DNA of 64,000 bases from Streptosporangium sandarakinum. Lineage in GTDB: Bacteria; Actinomycetota; Actinomycetes; Streptosporangiales; Streptosporangiaceae. The stretch lies in the NCBI RefSeq assembly GCF_013409935.1, contig NZ_JACCCO010000001.1, positions 1,984,001 to 2,048,000 of the forward strand, written 5' to 3'. The translations under genes and the position numbers were made by a program. The notes under the pieces are model-generated. The model did not search any database, had not been told where the DNA came from, and was given only the letters and a program-made list of their open reading frames with translations. Below are positions 51,888 through 56,465 of the stretch, piece by piece (positions within the stretch are counted from its first letter, which is position 1; each line of letters opens with the position of its first letter).

Positions 51888-52319
51888 ATGACACCGAAGC
51901 CCTCCGTATCGTGCGTGTTCGTCTGCCACGACGGCGCCGGCCGGGTGCTGCTGGCCCGGCGCGGCACCGGGGCGCGGGACGAGCCCGGCGCCTGGGACTG
52001 CGGCGCCGGGGCGCTGGAGTACGGCGAGACGTTCGAGGCGGCCGTCGCGCGCGAGGTCCGCGAGGAGTACTCGGCGGCGGCGCTGGAGATCGAGACGATC
52101 GGCGTCCGGAACGTCCTGCGCGGGGACCCGGTCTCCTCGCACTGGGTGGCGGTGGTGTTCGCGGTCCGGGTGGACCCGGCCGAGGTCGCCATCGGGGAGC
52201 CCCACAAGTTCGACGAGCTGGGCTGGTTCGCACCCGGCCGGCTTCCGGACCGGACGCACTCCCAGCTCCCCGAGAGCCTCGCGCTCTTCACCGCCTGGGC
52301 GGCCTCCCGGCGCCTGTGA
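51888..52319 (+). CDS. NUDIX hydrolase
   Basis: This 143-residue protein has the NUDIX box G-x5-E-x7-REUxEE ('GALEYGETFEAAVAREVREE', residues ~41-60), which binds Mg and cleaves nucleoside diphosphate-linked substrates. The surrounding sequence ('VLLARRGTGARDEPGAWDC') fits the MutT/ADP-ribose-like branch. The stop TGA is also the first triplet of the conserved activator box of the next operon. Confidence 0.93.
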   Translation: MTPKPSVSCVFVCHDGAGRVLLARRGTGARDEPGAWDCGAGALEYGETFEAAVAREVREEYSAAALEIETIGVRNVLRGDPVSSHWVAVVFAVRVDPAEVAIGEPHKFDELGWFAPGRLPDRTHSQLPESLALFTAWAASRRL

Positions 52320-52382
52320 CGACCGTCAGGGGTGAAGTCACGATGACCGCCACTTACCTGGGAAAACGCCGATTCCTAGGGT
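52317..52382 (+). promoter_or_regulatory. Activated promoter of the ABC/two-component operon
   Basis: The box TGACGACCGTC, then GTGA-AG-TCAC plus GAT (52317-52344), precedes TTACCT (-35, 52354-52359), a 17-nt spacer and TAGGGT (-10, 52377-52382). Seven bases then separate the -10 from the ATG, so the transcript is leaderless. The same arrangement, at identical distances, occurs at 56045-56110. Confidence 0.8.
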
Positions 52383-52389
52383 TGGCGTC

Positions 52390-53286
52390 ATGGAGAGAGC
52401 GGCGGTCGAGTTCCACGAGGTGAGCAAGCGCTACGGCCAGGTCCGGGCGCTTGACGCGGCGGGTTTCACGGTGGCGCGCGGGGAGACGGTCTCCCTGCTG
52501 GGCCACAACGGGGCGGGCAAGTCCACGGCGGTGGCGCTGATGCTCGGGCTGGTCCGCCCGGACGGCGGGCGGGTCGGCGTCCTGGGCGGCTCCCCGGCCA
52601 GAGCGGTCGCCCGGGGCCGGGTCGGCGCGATGCTGCAGAGCGGCGGGCTGCCCGACGGCGCCTCGGTCCGCGACATCGTCCGATTGGCCTGCGGGCTGTA
52701 CGGCGGGCGCCGGAGGATCGGCGAGGTCCTCGAACTGGCCGGGCTGACCGAGCTGGCCGGGCGGCGGGCGACCGCGCTGTCGGGCGGGCAGGCCCAGCGG
52801 GTCCGCTTCGCGATCGCGGTCGCGGGACGGCCGGAGCTGCTGTTCCTCGACGAGCCGACCGTGGCGATGGACGTCGAGGCCCGCCGCGAGTTCTGGGACG
52901 CGGTCCGCGCCTGCCGGGAGACCGAGGGCACGACGGTCGTGTTCGCCACCCACTACCTGGAGGAGGCCGACCAGTTCGCCGACCGGGTCGTGGTGCTCGG
53001 CCACGGCCGGGTGGTCGCCGACGCCGCCCCGGCGACGGTCAAGGCCCGGGTGGGCGGGCGGATCGTCCGCTGCGTGCTGGCCGAGCCCGACCCGCAGCGT
53101 CTGCTGGCCCTGCCGGGCGTGACGGAGGTGACCGTCCGGGCCGGGCAGGTGGAGCTGCGGACCGACGACGCCGACCGGACCGTGGGCGCCCTCTACTCCG
53201 CGATCGGCGGGGTGCGCGACCTCGAGGTGACCGGCGCCGGCCTCGATGAAGCCCTGATCCTTCTGTCTTCCGGAAAGGCCGCGTAA
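52390..53286 (+). CDS. ABC transporter ATP-binding protein (drug-export type)
   Basis: This 298-residue ATPase has Walker A 'GHNGAGKST', signature 'LSGGQAQRVRFAIA', Walker B 'LLFLDEPTVAMD' and H-loop 'FATHYLEEAD'. The 'LEEAD' following the H-loop and the C-terminal domain are typical of DrrA/NatA-type exporters. The ATG at 52390 is family-typical and lies seven bases from a -10 box. Its stop overlaps the permease start (TAATG). The permease, histidine kinase and response regulator follow without gaps. Confidence 0.94.
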   Translation: MERAAVEFHEVSKRYGQVRALDAAGFTVARGETVSLLGHNGAGKSTAVALMLGLVRPDGGRVGVLGGSPARAVARGRVGAMLQSGGLPDGASVRDIVRLACGLYGGRRRIGEVLELAGLTELAGRRATALSGGQAQRVRFAIAVAGRPELLFLDEPTVAMDVEARREFWDAVRACRETEGTTVVFATHYLEEADQFADRVVVLGHGRVVADAAPATVKARVGGRIVRCVLAEPDPQRLLALPGVTEVTVRAGQVELRTDDADRTVGALYSAIGGVRDLEVTGAGLDEALILLSSGKAA

Positions 53287-53987
53287 TGTTGCCCCTCGTG
53301 CGGTTCGAACTCGTTCGCGCCCTGCGCAATGTCAAGTACCTGGTGTTCCTGGTGGCCGTCCCGGTCGGTTTCTACCTGATGTGGGGACGCGGCTCGGACG
53401 CCGCCCTGGTGGCGATGGCGGTCTACGCCGCGACCGGCGGCGCGCTGATGGCCGCGGGCGGCGGGGTCGCCGACGACCGCGCCCAGGGCTGGTTGCGGCA
53501 GCTGCGGGTCACCCCGCTGAGCGGCGCCCGGTGGCTCGCCGGGCGCGTCGTGCTCGGCGTCGTGATGACCCTGCCCGGCATCCTCGCCGTCTGCCTGGCG
53601 GCCGTCCTGGTCGGCCACGCCGACCTGCCGCCCGCGCGGTGGGCCGCGCTGGCCGGGGTCCTGCTGGCCGGGTCGCTGCCGTTCTGCCTGCTGGGACTGT
53701 TCCTGGGGCTGACGCTGCGCGGCAAGACCGCCCAGCTCGGGATCGTGGTGGTCTTCTTCGCCCTGGCCGCGCTCGGCGGCGTGATCGGCCAGGGCGACCT
53801 GCCCGGCGCCTGGCAGCGGGTCCGCGAGCTCACCCCGTCCCACAGCCTGCTGCTGTACGGCGACGCCGCGGCGAGCGGCCGGGACGGACGATCCGCCGGC
53901 CTCGGTCAGGCCGGTGTCCTGGCCGCCTGGACGGCGCTGGCCGGCGCGGCGGTGCTGGCGCGGCGGCGCTGGAGCTCGGACGGGTGA
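53286..53987 (+). CDS. ABC-2-type transporter permease
   Basis: This 233-residue membrane protein has six hydrophobic segments and the ABC-2 'VADDRAQGWLRQLRVTPLSG' motif. It pairs with the preceding ATPase to export an unidentified lipophilic or antibiotic substrate. The start overlaps the ATPase stop and its own stop overlaps the histidine kinase GTG, indicating tight co-translation. Confidence 0.92.
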   Translation: MLPLVRFELVRALRNVKYLVFLVAVPVGFYLMWGRGSDAALVAMAVYAATGGALMAAGGGVADDRAQGWLRQLRVTPLSGARWLAGRVVLGVVMTLPGILAVCLAAVLVGHADLPPARWAALAGVLLAGSLPFCLLGLFLGLTLRGKTAQLGIVVVFFALAALGGVIGQGDLPGAWQRVRELTPSHSLLLYGDAAASGRDGRSAGLGQAGVLAAWTALAGAAVLARRRWSSDG

Positions 53988-55282
53988 CCGCACCGGAGAC
54001 GACACCCGGGGCGGCGTCCGATGTGGCGTCCGGGGCGGCGCCCGGGACGACGACCGCGGTGACGCCGGGGGCGGCCTCCGGAGCCGCGCCCGGAGGAACG
54101 GCCGGCTGGACCCGGCGGGCCCGGCCCGCCGGGTCTTCGGGTATGGACGGGCCCCCGGACGCCGAGGACGAGGGCCGGATCACCCGCCTGTGGTCGGCCC
54201 GGGACCGCTCCCGCCTCCTGCTGCTGGTCGCCGTCACGGTCTGGGCCTCGGCCGCCCAGGTGGCCGCCGGCACCCCGGCGTGGCCGACGGCCGCCGCGAT
54301 CGCCCTCGGGGTGCTGCTGGCCCTGCTGGGGCTGACGGTCCGCTCCGCCGCCGAGCCGAGGGTGTGGTGGCCGCGGTTCGCGGCGCTGGCCGCGATCCCG
54401 CTCCTGCTCGCCTTCGTGGCCGGTCCCTGGTGGGCGGCGACCGCCGCGTGGGCCAGCACCGCCGCCGGGTGGGGGCCGCCGCGGCGGGCCCAGCCGTACG
54501 TCGTGGGGCTCGGGCTGTCGGCGGCCCTGCTGGCCTTCGCCGGCGGCGGGGACGCCGGGCTGGCCCTGGTGCTGGGCGGGTTCGTCGCGCTCGCCGGCTT
54601 CTTCGCCGTCCAGGCCCGGCACGCCTCGGAGCTGATGACCGAGCTGCGGGAGACCAAGCAGGAGCTGGCCCGGCTGGCGGTCGTCGAGGAGCGCAACCGC
54701 ATCGCCCGCGACCTGCACGACCTGGTCGGGCACAGCCTGTCAGTGGTGGCCGTGAAGACCGAGCTGGCCCGCCGCCTGCTGCCGATCGACACCGGTCGCG
54801 CCGACGGCGAGCTGAAGGACATCGACGCCATCGTGCGCCGCGCCCTGTCGGAGGTACGGCAGGCGGTCACCGGCTACCGGCAGCCGACGCTGGCGGCCGA
54901 GCTGTCGTCGGCGGTCCAGGCCGCCCGGGCCGCCGGCATCCGCTGCGAGGTGACCAGCCCGGAATCCTGGGACCTGCCGGTGGCCGTCGAGGGCCTGCTG
55001 GCCTGGACGGTCCGGGAGGGCATCACCAACGTGCTGCGGCACAGCGGCGCCGCCAACTGCTGGATCACGGTGACCGGGGACCCCGGGGACGCCACCGGGA
55101 TCGCTGGCGGGATCGCGGTCGAGGTCGCCGACGACGGCGCCGTACGGGACCGCGACGACGACGGCCGGCCGGGCAACGGCCTGGCCGGGCTGAGCGAGCG
55201 GGCCCGCGCCCTGGGCGGTTCCCTGACCGCGGGCAGGCGCGACGGGGGCGGCTTCCGGCTGCGAGTGGAGGTGACGGGTTGA
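53984..55282 (+). CDS. Sensor histidine kinase (NarX/DesK-like)
   Basis: This 432-residue kinase begins with ~65 low-complexity Ala/Pro/Thr residues, followed by about six membrane segments (residues 77-210). A HisKA_3 dimerisation helix carries phospho-acceptor H245 in 'ARDLHDLVGHSLS', and a HATPase_c domain carries 'REGITNVLRHSGA' (N box) and 'GNGLAGLSERARALGG' (G box). GTG 53984 overlaps the permease stop (GTGA). It senses a membrane or exported signal and phosphorylates the next protein. Confidence 0.93.
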   Translation: MTAPETTPGAASDVASGAAPGTTTAVTPGAASGAAPGGTAGWTRRARPAGSSGMDGPPDAEDEGRITRLWSARDRSRLLLLVAVTVWASAAQVAAGTPAWPTAAAIALGVLLALLGLTVRSAAEPRVWWPRFAALAAIPLLLAFVAGPWWAATAAWASTAAGWGPPRRAQPYVVGLGLSAALLAFAGGGDAGLALVLGGFVALAGFFAVQARHASELMTELRETKQELARLAVVEERNRIARDLHDLVGHSLSVVAVKTELARRLLPIDTGRADGELKDIDAIVRRALSEVRQAVTGYRQPTLAAELSSAVQAARAAGIRCEVTSPESWDLPVAVEGLLAWTVREGITNVLRHSGAANCWITVTGDPGDATGIAGGIAVEVADDGAVRDRDDDGRPGNGLAGLSERARALGGSLTAGRRDGGGFRLRVEVTG

Positions 55283-55884
55283 TCCGGGTGTTCCTCGCCG
55301 AGGACCAGACCATGTTCCGCGGCGCGATGGCCGCCCTGCTGGGACTGGAGGCCGACCTGGAGGTGGTCGGCGACGTCTCCCGCGGGGACGAGGTCGTCGC
55401 CGCGTGTGAGCGCCTCCGGCCCGACGTGGCGCTGCTCGACATCGAGATGCCCGGCATGGACGGGCTGGAGGCCGCCCGCAGGCTCCGCTCGGCCGTGCCG
55501 GAGACGAGGGTCGTGATCGTGACGACCTTCGGCCGGCCGGGTTACCTGCACGCGGCGATGGCCGCCGGGGCCCGCGGCTTCCTCCTCAAGGACGCGCCCG
55601 TCGCCGAGCTGGCCGCGGGCATCCGGAAGGTCGCCGCGGGCGGCCAGGTGGTCGATCCGGCGCTGGCCGTGGCGGCGCTGAGCGAGGGCGCCAGCCCGCT
55701 CACCCCGCGGGAGAAGGACGTCCTGGCCGCCGCCCGCGCCCACGGCACCATCGCCGACATCGGCCGTGACCTGCACCTGTCGCCGGGGACCGTCCGCAAC
55801 CACCTGTCGGCGGCGATCCAGAAACTCGGAGCCCGGACCAGGACCGAGGCCATCGACATCGCCGTCTCCAAGGGCTGGCTCTGA
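55279..55884 (+). CDS. NarL/LuxR-type response regulator
   Basis: This 201-residue regulator has a receiver domain with phospho-acceptor D54 ('LLDIEMPGMDG') and a C-terminal LuxR HTH ('LTPREKDVLAAARAHG', 'DIGRDLHLSPGTVRNHL'). It starts with TTG, overlapping the kinase stop (TTGA), with GGAGGTGAC upstream. It is the probable activator binding the box repeated at 52317 and 56045, so it would control both its own operon and the LiaF-like gene. That target assignment is inference from the paired promoters. Confidence 0.94.
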   Translation: MIRVFLAEDQTMFRGAMAALLGLEADLEVVGDVSRGDEVVAACERLRPDVALLDIEMPGMDGLEAARRLRSAVPETRVVIVTTFGRPGYLHAAMAAGARGFLLKDAPVAELAAGIRKVAAGGQVVDPALAVAALSEGASPLTPREKDVLAAARAHGTIADIGRDLHLSPGTVRNHLSAAIQKLGARTRTEAIDIAVSKGWL

Positions 55885-55927
55885 CGTCCGGCCGGACGGC
55901 GCGAGCCGGTCGCGGAGCCCCGGCCCC

Positions 55928-55989
55928 GGGAGGCCGGTCCGCGCGGCCGGGTCACGGCCGGGTCGCGCGGGAGGCCGGTCCGCGCGGCC
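55928..55989 (+). repeat. 41-bp-period direct repeat after the response regulator
   Basis: GGGAGGCCGGTCCGCGCGGCC occurs at 55928-55948 and again 41 bp later. With flanking CCGGCC palindromes it can form several stems and may terminate the operon transcript. Nothing else is seen between 55885 and 56044. Confidence 0.6.
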
Positions 55990-56044
55990 CGGCCGCGCGG
56001 GAGACCGTTCACACGACCCGGGCCGGACGGCCGGGCCCGGGGTG

Positions 56045-56110
56045 TGACGACCGTCCTGGGTGAGATCACGATCCGCGGCACTTATCAGGAGATCGATGAC
56101 TTCGTAGCGT
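56045..56110 (+). promoter_or_regulatory. Activated promoter of the LiaF-like gene
   Basis: TGACGACCGTC, then GTGA-GA-TCAC plus GAT (56045-56072), precedes TTATCA (-35, 56082-56087), a 17-nt spacer and TAGCGT (-10, 56105-56110). The -10 ends seven bases before the ATG. Spacing matches the promoter at 52317 without a gap over 76 bases. Confidence 0.8.
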
Positions 56111-56117
56111 GGTGACC

Positions 56118-56465
56118 ATGACGAACACCACCCCGAAGTCCTGGAAGATCTCCCTCCTCGGCGGCGTCAAGCAGCGCGGCCCCCAGCGGCTGCCCGAGCA
56201 CCTGGTCGTCGTCACCGCCGTCGGCGGGGCCGACCTCGACCTCACCGGCGCCGCCTTCTCCGGCGGCCGGTTCACCCTGACCAAGGTCTCCTTCGCAGGC
56301 GGGGTGAAGCTCACCGTCCCCGCGGGCGTCCGCGTCGAGGTCGGGGGGTTCCACCTGTTCGGTGGCCACCACGTCGAGCAGGGCGCCGGGGCGCCCGACG
56401 GCCCGGTGGTCACCGTCCGCGCCTACGGGGTGTTCGGCGGCGTCCGGGTGGGCCGGTCGTCCTGA
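56118..56465 (+). CDS. LiaF-like/cell-wall-active-response C-terminal domain protein
   Basis: This 115-residue protein has repeated beta-rich Gly motifs ('GGADLDLTGAAF', 'GGVKLTVPAGVRVEVGGFHLFGG', 'VTVRAYGVFGGVRV'). They resemble the beta-helical C-terminal domain of LiaF/VraT-type proteins. There is no membrane helix, unlike full LiaF, and no DUF1707 start. By analogy it may bind or inhibit the kinase or sense envelope stress. The ATG at 56118 fits the promoter. It converges with the GH13 gene. Confidence 0.75.
   Translation: MTNTTPKSWKISLLGGVKQRGPQRLPEHLVVVTAVGGADLDLTGAAFSGGRFTLTKVSFAGGVKLTVPAGVRVEVGGFHLFGGHHVEQGAGAPDGPVVTVRAYGVFGGVRVGRSS

Follow-up and report, generated by a model that had tools for sequence, protein, structure and literature searches.

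Results

Two look-alike promoters at a DesK/DesR-like locus

We analysed a stretch of 64,000 nucleotides (nt) from Streptosporangium sandarakinum, called the window throughout, whose own 7.65-Mb genome is coded G000. At the locus studied here, the ATPase and permease genes of an ATP-binding cassette (ABC) exporter are followed by genes for a DesK-like histidine kinase and a DesR-like response regulator, and then by a gene for a soluble LiaF-like (Toastrack) protein. A promoter of the same build stands before the ATPase gene (promoter A) and before the LiaF-like gene (promoter B). The coordinates are collected in Table 1.

Positions 52315-52390 and 56043-56118 align without gaps and are identical at 49 of 76 bases, with the two ATGs (52390 and 56118) in register. 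The next best site for the same 76-mer on either strand of the window matched at 37 of 76 positions (mean 20.3, standard deviation 3.8). The observation of two look-alike promoters in the preliminary description of this DNA, which had reported 76 gapless bases upstream of both genes, is thus confirmed. When anchored at the ATG, A and B matched at 46 of 73 positions. Among 13041 pairs of upstream regions, drawn from the 162 window open reading frames (ORFs) of at least 150 amino acids, the top scores were 55 (one pair) and then 41; the A/B pair itself falls outside this set because the LiaF-like ORF is shorter than 150 amino acids. The pair scoring 55/73 consists of the 73 nt before ORF starts at window 42678 (+) and 44464 (-), which resemble similar coding stretches.

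In four genomes the 28-bp box agreed between A and B at 21 to 24 of 28 positions, while the spacer agreed at only 3 to 7 of 16, the pattern of selected sites with a diverged spacer that the preliminary description had proposed; identities over the 30 nt that precede the box numbered 6 to 15 (15/30 in G000). That description had also counted the -35 among the conserved parts. The box, the -10, the distance to the ATG and the 17-nt spacer stood, but the -35 is weak in both promoters (TTACCT and TTATCA), and the conserved string is instead CACTTA. Both TAnnGT strings start 13 nt ahead of the ATG.

With up to three mismatches allowed, the 28-bp box occurred at two sites in the 7.65-Mb genome, both at this locus, so it is not common upstream of unrelated genes, an outcome that the preliminary description had named as refuting. 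A reversed-pattern control gave no site in the same genome, and a second pattern, running from the second element through CACTTA, returned the same two sites and no others.

Table 1. Features of the locus, in window coordinates
Feature	Position	Strand	Remarks
Operator A core, inverted repeat TGAC-GACC-GTCA	52317..52328	+	-73 to -62 from ATG
Box A second element, kept as GGGT-N-A-N3-C-R-CGA	52330..52343	+	Promoter alignment
Promoter A CACTTA, overlapping weak -35	52351..52356	+	CACT-A in 16/16 aligned promoters
Promoter A putative -10, TAGGGT	52377..52382	+	7 nt 5' of ATG
ABC transporter ATPase	52390..53286	+	Pfam ABC_tran; leaderless start predicted
ABC-2 permease	53286..53987	+	Pfam ABC2_membrane_3
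DesK-like histidine kinase	53984..55282	+	Pfam HisKA_3; DesK the best solved relative
DesR-like response regulator	55279..55884	+	Pfam Response_reg and GerE; helix SPGTVRNHL
Operator B core TGAC-GACC-GTCC	56045..56056	+	One base short of full repeat
Box B second element	56058..56071	+	Promoter alignment
Promoter B CACTTA	56079..56084	+	Promoter alignment
Promoter B putative -10, TAGCGT	56105..56110	+	7 nt 5' of ATG
Soluble LiaF-like (Toastrack) protein, 115 amino acids	56118..56465	+	Pfam LiaF-like_C, below cut-off; leaderless start predicted

The top NCBIfam match of the ATPase was the DrrA subfamily, with a score below the cut-off. A simple hydropathy scan marked several hydrophobic stretches in residues 76 to 212 of the kinase; the listed start of the kinase is GTG, a later start being possible, and the listed start of the regulator is TTG. 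Upstream lies a NUDIX hydrolase gene (window 51888-52319), the last bases of which are the first three of operator A. A NUDIX homologue adjoins the operon in G005, and none was reported in the displayed stretches of the other orthologues.

The promoters are conserved across relatives

The 28-bp box was found in five of 120 family genomes sampled, in both copies in G000 and G005 and in one copy each in G061, G038 and G096; in all five a distance of 73 nt separates it from the ATPase start. Next, 200 family genomes were searched with the permease, 82 matching at E 1e-20, and the nine at 58% identity or more were taken as orthologues. Among the matches listed, all others were at most 46% identical, and owing to this gap the permease separates orthologues cleanly. 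The box, at 0 to 5 mismatches, precedes the ABC gene in all nine family orthologues and in Kibdelosporangium persicum (L010). In five of the nine (G000, G005, G158, G178 and G144) a LiaF-like gene lies 3' of the regulator, preceded in every case by a separate box with 0 to 2 mismatches. A regulon of two promoters, as first proposed, is upheld by these counts: the box stands at two sites in the genome and recurs in the orthologues. In G158, G178 and G144 (L124:7309, L126:7348 and L128:6313), the TGA of operator B doubles as the stop codon of the regulator, and the LiaF-like promoter thus occupies the entire gap.

Sixteen promoters (9 ABC and 7 LiaF-like) were aligned, G005 being omitted as a near-copy. 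TGAC, TC, GGG, C-CGA, CACT-A, TA--GT and ATG were invariant, while most spacer columns varied. The preliminary description had singled out GGGTGA-n2-TCACGAT as conserved. It is present in both window copies, but the orthologues in this alignment keep GGGT-N-A-N3-C-R-CGA and not the palindrome GTGA-n2-TCAC, which was ruled out as a second operator for this reason. In all 16 promoters TAnnGT is followed by 6 or 7 nt and then ATG. In high-GC bacteria, TAnnnT about 12 bp ahead of the start marks leaderless genes (PMC3160421, in excerpt). Both window promoters look leaderless, as had been suggested, with the transcript predicted to begin at or beside the ATG.

A sequence-only profile (R1) was built from the 16 promoters and hence includes the window's own two; its E-values are rough because calibration was shortened. 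On G000 it scored the two promoters at 65.8 and 60.6 bits, the next match reaching 13.3. Over 15 genomes it gave seven weak matches (E 0.0025 to 0.59), one each in G077, G119, G155, G194, G097, G000 and G005, extending from model position 2 or 3 to 78 and so reaching the ATG. By coordinates each lies upstream of a paralogous ABC permease; partial matches of comparable score occur elsewhere in those genomes. Over 200 family genomes R1 returned 21 matches in 16 genomes at E 1e-4, 15 of them already in the model. The six others were two in G005, the LiaF-like genes of G168 and G166, one in G069 that by coordinates is upstream of a paralogous ABC permease, and one in G125.

The G125 match (G125:C35:64350-64410; L338, ~1502-1562; E 5.6e-11, model positions 2-62) comprises a box and CACTTA that resemble their counterparts in the G144 and G178 ABC promoters. 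No ABC gene lies within 1.5 kb downstream, and the permease matches of this genome are only 40-41% identical. The box is probably a stranded remnant of a lost operon.

Most stand-alone LiaF-like genes carry the operator, in several families

The LiaI-LiaF-TM membrane part was not found in the 115-residue LiaF-like protein by Pfam or by a hydropathy scan; the scan marked one segment at the threshold (1.51), inside the beta-strand domain. The protein is predicted to be all-beta in a structure model of mean pLDDT 75.6; the fold expected of Toastrack proteins is a right-handed beta-helix. When the LiaF_C profile was run on homologues, L133 passed (38.2) and L136 gave no match.

LiaF-like loci were listed from 200 family genomes (30 loci) and 394 class genomes (30 loci), which gave 56 distinct loci. 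A regular expression, in agreement with a reading of the printed sequences, assigned a DUF1707-type N-terminus to 33 and left 23 as stand-alone genes. Pfam found DUF1707 in both of two fused proteins tested and in none of five stand-alone ones, one of which is a fragment of 60 residues that matched nothing. TGAC-N4-GTC[A/C] was present upstream of 20 of the 23 stand-alone genes and of none of the 33 fused ones (Fisher's test, 2e-12, which overstates the case because the rows are related). The three stand-alone genes lacking the box are L122, L256 and L258 (G017, G381 and G287).

Four genomes of genus g65 (G155, G097, G194 and G168) have a LiaF-like gene with a strong box, at 54.8 to 66.7 bits. 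The 20 operator-bearing genes include those of five genomes of family f18 (G437, G375, G216, G294 and G304) and one of f28 (G243). No kinase or regulator of this kind was found in the 12 to 14 kb fetched around each of these six loci. Each of the six shows TAnnnT followed, after 6 or 7 nt, by an in-frame ATG; CACT stands between the box and the -10 in all five f18 loci.

One LiaF-like gene (L139:6494-6838, in G162) is out of register with its relatives in the middle third, as if by two frame changes, through either an assembly error or a real change. It was left out of alignment A3, since its middle seems to be in another frame.

The recognition helix of the regulator corresponds with the operator

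The closest solved structure of the regulator is DesR (4ldz; E 9e-48), VraR following at 2.6e-26, and that of the kinase is DesK (E 1.8e-27, residues 215-422). In 13 Nonomuraea loci (L042, L044-L046, L048-L051, L053, L054, L057, L058 and L060) two consecutive histidine kinase matches precede a DesR-like regulator, and no ABC match lies immediately upstream.

The comparison took in 73 distinct regulators with 48% identity or more, each with an ABC gene on its upstream side, and the operator was sought within 230 nt upstream of that gene. A GTVRN helix was present in 67, and the exact core TGAC-N4-GTCA accompanied 63 of these, against a background of 0.015 occurrences per 200 nt, true sites counted in. 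Five regulators had STVRN, with GGAC-N4-GTCC upstream in three, GTACTTTTGTCC in two and TGAC-N4-GTCA in none (0/5); one helix was not parsed. Upstream of two regulators of 37-38% identity with a different helix, neither operator form was found. Thus, GTVRN pairs with TGAC-N4-GTCA, and STVRN with GGAC-N4-GTCC or near-forms.

After this rule had been noticed, 20 further regions were fetched: 19 of the 20 matches of at least 60% identity (among 33 listed) and one G155 region; a partial match (G294:C22) and the 13 matches below 60% identity were left aside. All 12 regions with an ABC gene had GTVRN and the exact core (12/12), although these are not independent trials, being related to one another and to the earlier rows. 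The other eight regions, with no ABC match, had GGAC[A/T]TTTGTCC in three cases, TGACATTTGTCC in two and neither in three. Five loci without a detectable ABC gene (L319, L323, L325, L331 and L334) have an STVRN helix, that of L325 not being parsed by the script, and still carry GGAC[A/T]TTTGTCC or TGACATTTGTCC upstream of the kinase.

Together with the conservation in orthologues, this correspondence makes the NarL/LuxR-type regulator encoded between the promoters the probable binder of both boxes, as originally proposed. The sequences strongly suggest that it binds TGAC-N4-GTCA at -73 to -62 and the element at -60 to -47.

Discussion

We consider it likely, with appreciable room for doubt, that the locus encodes an actinobacterial system of the DesK/DesR (YvfTU) type, in which the regulator activates the exporter operon from promoter A and the LiaF-like gene from promoter B through TGAC-N4-GTCA, with leaderless transcripts. 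By analogy with its DesK/DesR relatives, the kinase would sense a membrane property and phosphorylate the regulator. A regulator dimer would then occupy the inverted repeat, aided by the second element just downstream, and would switch on a weak promoter, as the operator position and the poor -35 suggest, with transcription starting from the ATG or right next to it. Promoter A would yield the exporter, the kinase and the regulator, so that use of operator A would make the exporter operon autoregulated. Promoter B would yield the soluble LiaF-like protein, which might serve as a scaffold or feedback partner on the cytoplasmic side of the membrane, a speculation that draws on a proposal in PMC11237479 (in excerpt).

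With somewhat less assurance, we lean towards a broader view. Throughout Actinomycetia, soluble Toastrack genes that stand alone would form a conserved second branch of membrane sensing of the DesR type. Through its leaderless promoter, a cytoplasmic scaffold protein of the membrane would be tied to the regulator that controls the exporter, in cis in some genomes and in trans in others, and the operator would persist even in genomes that lack the orthologous exporter system.

Several points weigh against these readings. The evidence is computational throughout: the sequences show two sites in the genome, conservation across genera, a fixed spacing and the correspondence of helix and operator, whereas binding, activation, the leaderless start, the signal and the role of the LiaF-like protein are inferred. 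Operator B ends in GTCC and not GTCA. The exact core is missing from four of the 67 GTVRN systems: L170 (the G077 orthologue) and L251, each one base off, and L052 and L248. In a tree of 123 regulators STVRN forms one clade, which makes the helix change a single event. The LiaF-like protein scores 22.9 bits with Pfam LiaF-like_C, where the cut-off is 29, and a Foldseek search of its model against the PDB gave no significant neighbour (best E 1.7). Four of the nine orthologous systems (G061, G038, G096 and G077) lack an adjacent stand-alone LiaF-like gene and show just weak LiaF-like matches elsewhere (best E 1.6e-12 to 2.2e-10); the LiaF-like gene is thus not obligatory. Finally, G000 encodes three more DesR-like regulators of 53-61% identity, and the best regulator in each of G155, G097, G194 and G168 is just 64-65% identical and no orthologue.

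The last of these points lend themselves to an alternative in which one or more paralogous DesR-like regulators of overlapping specificity are the main binders of one or both boxes, the local regulator being a node in a cross-talking set. The strong LiaF-like boxes of those four genomes are kept without an orthologous regulator, so that another regulator must read the box there, if any does. In G000, moreover, the contig C3 paralogue is accompanied by an ABC operon of its own, and TGACAAATGTCA, with the same half-sites, lies there at -66. However, the inner four bases of the C3 operator differ from those of the window operator, its promoter reaches just 13.3 bits on the profile, and the full box with its second element accompanies the orthologous systems. 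We regard this alternative as unlikely.

The preliminary description had favoured an envelope-stress or drug-response system. In a three-component arrangement like LiaFSR, the LiaF-like protein would inhibit the kinase; a LiaF_C-like protein does adjoin a two-component system here, and LiaF has been described as a membrane inhibitor of LiaS (PMC11237479, in excerpt). But the regulator is far nearer to DesR than to VraR and the kinase is nearest to DesK, the LiaF-like protein has no membrane part, and it is missing in 4/9 systems. The Lia-type reading was rejected on the kinship with DesK/DesR, and we give it very little credence, although a feedback role of the LiaF-like protein as such is still conceivable. 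Nothing here favours a drug or cell-wall signal, and the motif and layout have been published for the DesKR/YvfTU group in Firmicutes.

That the promoters are alike through recent copying alone, with no regulatory meaning, would fit a box with just two sites in the genome and the half-matching bases above it in G000, but the pair also exists in G158, G178 and G144 with diverged spacers, and other families too have the core in front of ABC genes and of stand-alone LiaF-like genes. We consider this origin extremely improbable; it was rejected, together with chance, on the genome box search, the A/B comparison and the profile search.

The DesR-type reading has three uses. With the correspondence of helix and operator, targets could be predicted from the genome sequences of actinobacteria, and Toastrack proteins that have no membrane part become accessible through their regulation. 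The recurrent second target narrows the question of what the exporter does, since its signal apparently demands a soluble Toastrack protein as well.

Comparison with known systems

The nearest solved relatives of both window proteins are DesK and DesR of Bacillus subtilis, where the target of DesR is the desaturase gene des; here the targets would be an exporter and a LiaF-like gene. The DesR motif is ATGACA-N2-TGTCAT (quoted in PMC11034029, in excerpt). Compared with this motif and its direct repeat, the window has TGAC/GTCA half-sites at A (GTCC at B), with inner GACC in place of A-N2-T, and its downstream element is conserved but altered with respect to the published direct repeat.

The ABC genes lie directly upstream of the kinase and regulator, as in the YvfTU branch. 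YvfRSTU of B. subtilis has relatives in B. anthracis (BA5598/BA5597) and S. aureus (SA1313/SA1314), and these Firmicutes systems combine two ABC genes, a kinase and a regulator with inverted and direct repeats in the promoter; DesK homologues are reported to respond to cooling, and the molecule exported by the Firmicutes DesKR-type ABC systems is unknown (PMC7726353, in excerpt). The window shares with YvfRSTU the order of genes, in which a DesK/DesR-like kinase and regulator come after two ABC genes. Unlike YvfRSTU, it has an altered second repeat, different inner bases and an apparently leaderless promoter, and a LiaF-like second target, which the excerpted text of PMC7726353 does not mention for YvfRSTU. 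TCS11 of Streptococcus pneumoniae is likewise DesKR-like and associated with ABC genes. The motif of its regulator RR11 is ATGACATTTGTCAT-N7-AGTGACA, and the sole specific target of RR11 is its own autoregulated operon, which holds the ABC genes (PMC11034029, in excerpt), whereas there are two promoters here. TGAC-N4-GTCA is contained in the published motifs of both DesR and RR11, and the window core thus fits this family, apart from its inner bases and the altered second element.

Like LiaFSR and VraTSR, the locus encodes a protein resembling LiaF_C (Toastrack) close to a LuxR-type two-component system, but it differs from them in having no LiaF membrane domain and a DesKR-like kinase and regulator. 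Toastrack domains have been placed in a transport operon of some Actinobacteria, with a sub-membrane scaffold proposed (PMC11237479, in excerpt), and this part of the picture was therefore already in print, which counts against its newness. The operator, the link to DesR and the stand-alone unlinked genes, all three seen here, do not appear in the excerpted text of that Toastrack survey, and we found no actinobacterial DesR-type operator before a LiaF-like gene in the open-licence papers searched. The operator type and the unit of ABC genes, kinase and regulator are already known; what seems to be new is that in the actinobacterial branch a stand-alone LiaF-like gene forms the second, sometimes unlinked, target.

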